A stretch of DNA of 64,000 nt, from NCBI GenBank assembly GCA_020444545.1, contig JAHLKT010000006.1:186001-250000 (forward strand), written 5' to 3'. Shown one piece after another: positions 39,861 through 46,080 of this stretch. How positions within the stretch are numbered: the first letter of the stretch is position 1; every line of letters starts with the position of its first letter. The DNA comes from Desulfarculaceae bacterium (GTDB taxonomy: Bacteria > Desulfobacterota > Desulfarculia > Desulfarculales > Desulfarculaceae). The notes under the pieces are model-generated. The model searched no databases, was not told the DNA's origin, and saw nothing but the letters and a program-made list of their open reading frames with translations. The position numbers were made by a program, and so were the translations under genes.

Positions 39861-43331
<3,471 letters not shown>

Positions 43332-43392
43332 GGGCGATCTCTCATGGTTGTCAATGACGATTCAAGGTGTTCGCGATCGCCAACTCGCCGCA

Positions 43393-44496
43393 TTATTCGA
43401 AATCCACTTCACAGGATTCGGAAATTTCATCAAGGTAATCTGGTTTTATATATTGAACTAATGAAGAGATGTTTTCTAGGCTGGTTCTTAACGATGAAAA
43501 GGAGATGTAGCGACACATCTCGTACATAGGCGGCAAAAGACGGGAAAAAGTGGGGCGATTGACTTCAGAGATAACCTTATCTCTTCGGCCATCAGGGGCT
43601 ACGATAAATAAAGGGATATTCAGGTTAGGTTGCATTGCAATCAAATCGGATAACCGCAACAAACCTGAGTAGATAGATGTAGTGCTTTCTATTTCGAAGG
43701 CTGCGACAATACTGTTTCCTTGCAGCCACAGTACATCGATTAATTCAATTGTCTGATTCGTGGCAGCATCAAACTGCAAGGGTAGCTCTTTTCTTAGCTT
43801 TTTTAATGAGTCGAATCTTTGGGACCTCCATTTTTTCCCTTTATCATTTTTAGCGACCCAAACGTCGAGCCCCATGTCTGAACCAAATTTCAACAGTAGC
43901 CATTGTATTTCTGTGTGTTCATAAACTTGTTCTTTTTGAGAAGAAGTTTCGTTTCCTGCATTTTCTGACTCTGGCACTATTACCGGCCCGAATTTAGTTT
44001 TAAAGGCCTTTGGTCTGGTTTTGAGCTTTCCTTGATCAACGGGGCGATGTACTGGATTCTCTTTAGCATCAAACACAGCCTTGGTGACTATTTCGCCATC
44101 GGCAACTTTCCATCTGGCGGGTGAACCTCGTAGATGTCCAGTCCAAGCGTTTGGATGAGATAAATTTTCAAAGATAGAGAGCTGTTCTTTAAGCTCCTTG
44201 ATCGGAACCGCAGTTTCAGGAGTAAGACCTACTAAAACTTTAACTTTTACTCTGCATGGGAAGGGGCTGTCTTCCCAAATTTTACTCTCGTCTTTGAAAG
44301 GATCACTGGTGATCTCCATTATGGCGATAAACCTAGAGACACCTATTAAATAGCAGAGAAAATAATCGCCAGGCTTAGTTCTTTTCAACATATTCAATCT
44401 ATGCTCACTGAAACCACTAGTGTCACCACCGGCAGCTAGAAATTCCTGCCAGGTTTTCCATGTAAACAGGTTTAACCAGTAGTTCCGTGGAGCCAT
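43393..44496 (-). CDS. EVE-like domain fused to PD-(D/E)XK-like nuclease domain (possible modification-dependent restriction factor)
   Basis: 367 residues. Residues 1-140 resemble an EVE/PUA-like domain: YWLNLFTWKTWQEF at the start, then a KPGDYFLCYLIGVSRFIAIMEI-like strand region with a typical Gly-Asp turn. Residues about 190-350 look like a PD-(D/E)XK fold: a helix with Glu194/Glu196, then IDVLWL (Asp254), a short turn and AAFEIEST (Glu268, Glu270), followed by a conserved TSIYSGLLRLSDLI stretch. Base composition is far lower in GC than neighbours (26/60 and 21/60 in two sampled lines against 40/60 in dnaE). It has an AAGGGGGG ribosome site. EVE domains are known to bind modified bases. 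Restriction function is inference. Confidence 0.65.
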   Translation of the reverse strand: MAPRNYWLNLFTWKTWQEFLAAGGDTSGFSEHRLNMLKRTKPGDYFLCYLIGVSRFIAIMEITSDPFKDESKIWEDSPFPCRVKVKVLVGLTPETAVPIKELKEQLSIFENLSHPNAWTGHLRGSPARWKVADGEIVTKAVFDAKENPVHRPVDQGKLKTRPKAFKTKFGPVIVPESENAGNETSSQKEQVYEHTEIQWLLLKFGSDMGLDVWVAKNDKGKKWRSQRFDSLKKLRKELPLQFDAATNQTIELIDVLWLQGNSIVAAFEIESTTSIYSGLLRLSDLIAMQPNLNIPLFIVAPDGRRDKVISEVNRPTFSRLLPPMYEMCRYISFSSLRTSLENISSLVQYIKPDYLDEISESCEVDFE

Positions 44497-44520
44497 TTAA
44501 CCCCCCTTGGAGATAGCTGC

Positions 44521-46080
44521 CTACTCCCACTCAATGGTGCTGGGTGGCTTACTTGAAATATCCAACACCACCCGGTTTATCCCGGCCACCTCGTTGATGA
44601 TGCGGCTGCTCAGCTTGGCCAAAAGCTCATAGGGCACGCGAGACCAGTCGGCGGTCATGGCGTCCACGCTGTCCACGATGCGCAGGGCCACCACGTCCTC
44701 GTAGGTGCGCTCGTCGCCCATTACGCCCACGGTCTTTACCGGCACCATCACCGCGAAGGACTGCCACACCTTGGTGTAGAGGTCCGCCGCGCGCATCTCC
44801 TCCTGCACGATGGCATCGGCCTCGCGCAAGGTGCGCAAACGGGCGCGGGTCACCTCGCCCATGATGCGGATGGCCAGGCCGGGGCCGGGGAAGGGCTGGC
44901 GGCTGACAATGGATTCGGGCAGGCCCAGCTCGCGGCCCACCTCGCGGCACTCGTCCTTGAACAATTCCCTCAGCGGCTCCACCAGCTTGAGCTTCATCTT
45001 CTCGGGCAGGCCGCCCACGTTGTGGTGGCTCTTGATCACCGCGCTGGGGCCCTTGAAGCTCACGCTCTCGATCACGTCGGGGTACAGCGTGCCTTGGGCC
45101 AGGTACTCCACCTCGCCCAGCTTCTTGGCCTCGGCCTCGAACACCTCGATGAAGGTGTGGCCGATGATGCGGCGCTTCTCTTCCGGGTCGGTGACCCCGG
45201 CCAAACGGTCCAGGAACAGATCGGCCGCGTCCACCACCACCAGGTTCAGGCCGAACACGTCGCGGAACAGGCCCGCCACCTCGGAGACCTCGCCCGACCG
45301 GAGCACCCCGTTGTCCACGAAGATGCTGGTCAGGTCCTTGCCGATGGCCTTGTGCAATAGGAGCGCAACCACCGAGGAGTCCACCCCGCCGCTAAGGGCG
45401 CAGATGACCTTCTGGCCGCCCAGGCGCTGCTTGAAATCGTTGATGGTGGCTTCGGCGAAGTTGTGCATGGTCCAGATGGGCTCGCAGCCGCAATCGCCCA
45501 AGACGAAGGCGGCCAGCATGGCCGCGCCGCCCGGGGTGTGGGCCACCTCGGGGTGGAACTGCACTCCGTAGATGCGCCGCTCGATGTCGCCCATGGCCGC
45601 CACCGGCGAGTTGCCGGTCACCGCCATGGCCTCGAAGCCCTGGGGCAGCTTTTCGATGCGGTCGCCGTGGCTCATCCACACCGGCTGGGGCTCGTCCTGG
45701 TCGGTGTCGCGGAAGGGGCCGCTGAGCTTGTGTATCTCCAGCTTGGCCGGGCCGTACTCGCGCTTGGCGCCCTTGGCCACCACTCCGCCCAACAGGTGGG
45801 TGATGATCTGCATCCCGTAGCAGATGCCCAACACCGGCACGCCCAGGGCGAAGATGCCCTGATCCACGCTGGGGGCCCCGGGCTCGTAGCAGGAGGCCGG
45901 GCCGCCCGAGAGGATGATGCCCTTGGGCGTGTAGGCCCGGATCTCCTCCATGGGCATGGTGCAGGGATGGATTTCGCAGTAGACCCGCGCCTCGCGCACC
46001 CGGCGCGCGATGAGCTGGGTGGTCTGGGAGCCGAAGTCCAGGATCAGGATTTTCTGCTGGTGTAGCTCGCTCACTATCAC
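44521..46080 (-). CDS. guaA: GMP synthase (glutamine-hydrolysing)
   Basis: 519 residues. The N-terminal class I glutamine amidotransferase has GICYGMQ (catalytic Cys) and FHPEVAHT; the central ATP-pyrophosphatase has the P-loop SGGVDSSV; the C-terminal dimerisation domain ends PPSTIEWE, the invariant ending. It makes GMP from XMP. Its start overlaps the guaB stop (ATGA). Confidence 0.97.

Follow-up and report, generated by a model that had tools for sequence, protein, structure and literature searches.

A putative solitary EVE–PD-(D/E)XK restriction endonuclease inserted behind guaA in a Desulfarculaceae bacterium

The window, a 64,000-nucleotide stretch of a Desulfarculaceae genome, holds a single gene between guaA and dnaE, and all three genes lie co-oriented on the minus strand. 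The features of this locus are as follows.

39861-43331, minus strand: dnaE, the downstream neighbour
43332..44520, no strand assigned: guaA-dnaE junction that contains the insert, with a length of 1189 bp here and of 76 bp in G001, the closest relative
43393..44496, minus strand: EVE-PD-(D/E)XK gene, 367 aa (open reading frame, Pfam, PADLOC, structure model)
43417..43944, minus strand: divergent PD-(D/E)XK nuclease domain, residues about 185-360 (PADLOC REase_II, model, fold match)
43687..43737, minus strand: catalytic motif D254 ... E268-x-E270
43936..44010, minus strand: disordered inter-domain linker, residues 163-187 (model pLDDT below 50)
44059..44496, minus strand: EVE domain, residues 1-146 (Pfam PF01878, Foldseek, conservation)
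44501..44508, minus strand: ribosome-binding-site-like AAGGGGGG, read from the sequence, four bases before the ATG
44521-46080, minus strand: guaA, the upstream neighbour
44525..44532, minus strand: GAGTGGGA at the 3' end of guaA, the same sequence at which GIsul2-type islands integrate (PMC9376610)

The reading frame is intact and opens with an ATG. The gene has a GC content of 41.9% and a GC3 of 0.398, compared to 66.1% and 0.929 for guaA and 65.9% and 0.928 for dnaE, and it is the only gene of such composition within the 64-kb window. An earlier note, made from the sequence alone, had pointed to this AT-richness. The composition is indeed foreign, although the quoted range of 35–43% GC was slightly low, as 300-bp windows inside the gene give 40–46%. 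A promoter scan of the insert returned three sites against a shuffle mean of 1.5, which is little above chance.

The N-terminal part of the protein, which the earlier note had called EVE-like, is an EVE domain at the level of both sequence and fold. Residues 5-106 match PF01878 at 29 bits against a cut-off of 23 (1.2e-6), and in Foldseek the structure model matches the solved archaeal EVE proteins PH1033 (1.9e-9) and MJECL36 (7.3e-9), as well as the EVE-HNH enzyme VcaM4I (8.4e-5). MJECL36 is also matched at 1e-8 in a profile search of the PDB, and when the nuclease was part of the query, a sequence search of the PDB gave EVE proteins only. Residues W74, W118, R123 and W129 are invariant among EVE-bearing homologues. 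The three Trp residues are conserved aromatics and candidates for a modified-base pocket like that of VcaM4I. The EVE domain of VcaM4I flips 5mC or 5hmC into its pocket (PMC7897488), and we guess that the ligand here is likewise a modified cytosine. An unlikely alternative, though one to be taken seriously, is that this is a modification-dependent nuclease reading some other mark: N6-methyladenine, as in YTH domains, a hypermodified pyrimidine, or modified RNA. Numerous YTH domains bound to m6A RNA or DNA are found among the Foldseek matches of the model, which leaves m6A open, and according to Bell et al. some EVE domains may recognise derivatives of adenine or thymine (PMC7641849). However, the closest matches by fold and by sequence are EVE proteins rather than YTH domains, and 5mC/5hmC is what is read by the EVE restriction enzyme whose complex with DNA has been solved (PMC7897488).

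In the full-length model (pLDDT 82), for which 18 sequences were used, the disordered linker connects two domains, and a pTM of 0.49 is what such a loosely tethered pair should give. Modelled alone, the nuclease domain reaches a pLDDT of 88 and a pTM of 0.86, with a helix followed by strands bearing the acidic motif and then a further helix and strand. Residues 193-321 match the PADLOC REase_II profile PDLC03534, for type II restriction enzymes, at 6e-15. The best solved fold match is the type II enzyme EcoT38I, and this match is weak (E 0.029, probability 0.93, TM about 0.42). The profile hit and the confident model together bear out the PD-(D/E)XK nuclease that had been predicted for the C-terminal part. 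The predicted Asp...Glu-x-Glu pattern is found there too, with D254, E268 and E270 invariant in the 18 aligned sequences, and the TSIYSGLLRLSDLI stretch named in the earlier note is present in the protein. Like this protein, BamHI has a Glu where most such enzymes have Lys. Searches of the protein against NCBIfam and PHROGs gave no functional name.

Taken with the evidence of transfer given below, this architecture supports the earlier reading at the level of domains and transfer, and from it we infer an activity. The gene probably encodes a solitary, modification-dependent (type IV-like) restriction endonuclease that was acquired horizontally. The pocket of the N-terminal EVE domain would receive a flipped-out modified base, a modified cytosine being the most likely one, and beyond the flexible linker the C-terminal domain would cut the DNA nearby using D254, E268 and E270, with Glu replacing the usual Lys. 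Because the predicted targets are modified foreign DNA and not unmodified DNA, such an enzyme would need no methyltransferase, and none adjoins the gene in the window. The host carries one C5-methyltransferase (PF00145, the only one in the genome) on another contig, so the enzyme would have to tolerate that methylation. Alone, this one gene would probably serve as a defence against viruses whose DNA is modified.

The combination of domains is not new. Bell, Wolf and Koonin predicted in 2020, at the level of the class, that EVE-PD(D/E)XK fusions are type IV restriction enzymes (PMC7641849); the protein in the window shares that core domain combination and that predicted role. VcaM4I (PMC7897488; 6yex) similarly combines an N-terminal EVE sensor and a C-terminal nuclease in a single chain, but its nuclease is of the HNH type. 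In the literature searched, no characterised enzyme of the present subfamily was found, and the EVE restriction enzyme whose structure has been solved belongs to the EVE-HNH type. The protein is therefore a compact candidate for studying how an EVE sensor is coupled to a PD-(D/E)XK nuclease.

Scanning one genome of each species gave 21 loci that encode relatives. Full-length EVE-bearing homologues share 51–63% identity over the best segment and are spread across about ten phyla, with hosts in the Planctomycetota, Acidobacteriota, Chloroflexota, Bacillota, Pseudomonadota and desulfobacterial groups, and one archaeon. The homologue tree shows no order by phylum, and its resolution is too poor for a donor to be named. 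Within the phylum of the window, the family is present in 11 of 297 genomes at E 1e-20, few of which have the EVE domain. A phage origin is unsupported, as neither phage records (tblastn) nor viral contigs (profile search) gave any relative.

The nuclease domain also occurs with N-terminal regions other than EVE. Two loci (L039 and L040) carry the same nuclease behind another region of about 280 aa, and that of L039 is 59% identical to the domain in the window, while plasmid forms (L050-L055) have an N-terminal region of about 240 aa and a nuclease domain identity of 36–41%. At L043:3600-4799 the nuclease domain is fused to an N-terminus that matches PADLOC PD-T4-1 (1.3e-20); we did not assign it that system's activity, as the accessible text of the PD-T4-1 paper describes none to which it could be tied. 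The L039 gene (L039:121-3337) directly precedes a C5-methyltransferase (PF00145, 4.1e-60) and a Vsr gene (1.3e-28), in an apparent type II system.

These arrangements bear on a reading that we consider very improbable, in which the protein is an ordinary type II-like enzyme, guarded against by a methyltransferase from another locus of the genome, and the EVE domain is a DNA-binding accessory. The L039 system, the PADLOC label REase_II and the single C5-methyltransferase of the host all speak in its favour. However, the host methyltransferase lies beside an ATPase-like gene on its separate contig, the domain fused to the nuclease in L039 is not EVE, and the EVE-bearing homologues have no adjoining methyltransferase. 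Across the EVE-bearing loci, a C5-methyltransferase is seen in the available flanks only at L023, about 2.7 kb off, a check that is limited because flank length differs between loci. In short, the nuclease domain is homologous to that of the type II enzymes (PDLC03534; L039, L050-L055), whereas the gene in the window lacks the adjoining methyltransferase that defines a type II restriction-modification system. As the same nuclease has other N-terminal domains and, once, adjoins a methyltransferase, the family may illustrate how, in nature, a type II-like enzyme becomes modification-dependent when its sensor is exchanged.

Two EVE-bearing loci have further genes of note nearby. At L023:2723-5875, downstream of the homologue, lie a PADLOC PD-Lambda-5_A match (2.4e-27) and the C5-methyltransferase. 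At L027:3344-4564, immediately upstream of the homologue there, are a second EVE-like gene (PF01878, sub-threshold at E 0.0038) and a gene for a YgjP-like metallopeptidase.

No homologue of the EVE-nuclease gene was found in the seven congeneric and twelve other family genomes searched. In the closest relative, whose guaA is 96% identical, the junction is empty, and it is short or empty also in G002, G005 and G006. In G007 the contig ends within guaA and the junction is unreadable. The horizontal transfer proposed in the earlier note, which had named close relatives as a check, thus agrees with the absence of the gene from these genomes, with its foreign composition (GC3 0.40 versus about 0.9), and with the scatter of the family over about ten phyla.

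Counting the present genome, three of the seven readable congeneric junctions hold one AT-rich gene and four are empty. In G004 (L006:3079-4062) the occupant encodes 328 aa in a segment of 44% GC and matches PADLOC PDC-S14 at 6e-101; it also has DUF4357 and, below threshold, a match to GIY-YIG. The occupant in G003 (L009:3086-3721) encodes 212 aa in a segment of 46% GC and matches Shedu SduA (8.6e-24) and Pfam SduA_C (2.5e-15). The gene in the window is therefore isolated in the sense that it stands alone between guaA and dnaE, as the earlier note had said, but in two sister species the junction is occupied by other lone defence genes. Each of the three occupants belongs to a different nuclease-like family, and all are co-oriented with guaA. 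Among 14 genomes checked, the PDC-S14 gene is absent from all others, and for the Shedu gene there is one further relative, a match of 137 aa where a contig of G004 ends.

Outside the genus the picture is mixed, with several junctions empty or short and others holding small ORFs of native composition. In one genome of the same order (G020; L015:299-1507) the junction holds a 403-aa AT-rich gene, which was left out of the defence count because PADLOC gave no match.

The distance from the guaA stop codon to the start of the occupant is 24 bp for the gene in the window, and ranges over only 18–31 bp across the three (24, 18 and 31 bp). The occupants therefore probably ride the guaBA transcript by read-through, the EVE-nuclease gene among them. 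The recurrent occupation of this site suggests, but does not prove, that in this genus (seven congeners) the guaA-dnaE junction is a lineage-specific defence slot, a shared landing place that takes alternative single-gene cargo and that the EVE-nuclease gene would have entered by horizontal transfer. A stronger version, which we put forward tentatively and with some doubt, is that of a dedicated slot in which solitary nucleases (EVE-PD-(D/E)XK, Shedu, PDC-S14) replace one another, bring no integrase with them and depend on the essential guaBA transcript for their expression. This probable shared slot is more unusual than the EVE-nuclease protein itself, and, as a small and countable system, it lends itself to asking how lone defence genes travel when no mobile element is visible.

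Cargo next to guaA has precedent. In Stenotrophomonas, guaA-flanked islands carry a diverse set of defence systems (PMC11680222), and GIsul2 integrates at GAGTGGGA (PMC9376610). In contrast to those islands, the genus studied here has one gene per genome, in the guaBA-dnaE gene order and without an integrase; neither an integrase nor the att-like flanking repeats of GIsul2-type islands are found at the window's insert. Flanking direct repeats were seen neither for this insert nor for that of PDC-S14, a second copy of GAGTGGGA was not found for the former, and no integrase gene accompanies the single gene between guaA and dnaE. The presence of GAGTGGGA alone says little, because its bases encode conserved terminal GuaA residues. 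The GC3 of the last 12 guaA codons is 0.58 here and 0.42 in G003, whereas the eight remaining sequences in the comparison lie at 0.75–1.0; it looks as though these two genomes had had the end of guaA exchanged. In G003, a 12-bp repeat, AATGGGAATAGT, flanks the Shedu insert and takes in the last codons of guaA (shuffle p 0.006). Site-specific integration followed by loss of the remainder is a plausible, though unproven, mode of entry behind guaA, and recombination between homologous guaA and dnaE flanks could serve as well.

The same marks could be read as those of a decayed passenger that is now free of selection, the terminal gene of a larger island which had integrated at the 3' end of guaA. 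The GAGTGGGA target, the odd codons at the end of guaA in this and the Shedu-bearing species, and the AATGGGAATAGT repeat all fit such a history, and a related gene in G106 has an internal stop. We nonetheless judge this improbable: the frame and catalytic residues are intact, the insert is compact and has no other remnant, and one site holds three different single genes in the same layout. The modification-dependent restriction endonuclease remains our preferred reading.

Finally, the C5-methyltransferase of the host (L045; C2:831275-832495) stands beside a large gene that by eye resembles an HSP90/MORC-type ATPase, and the pair may mark another defence island in the same genome.
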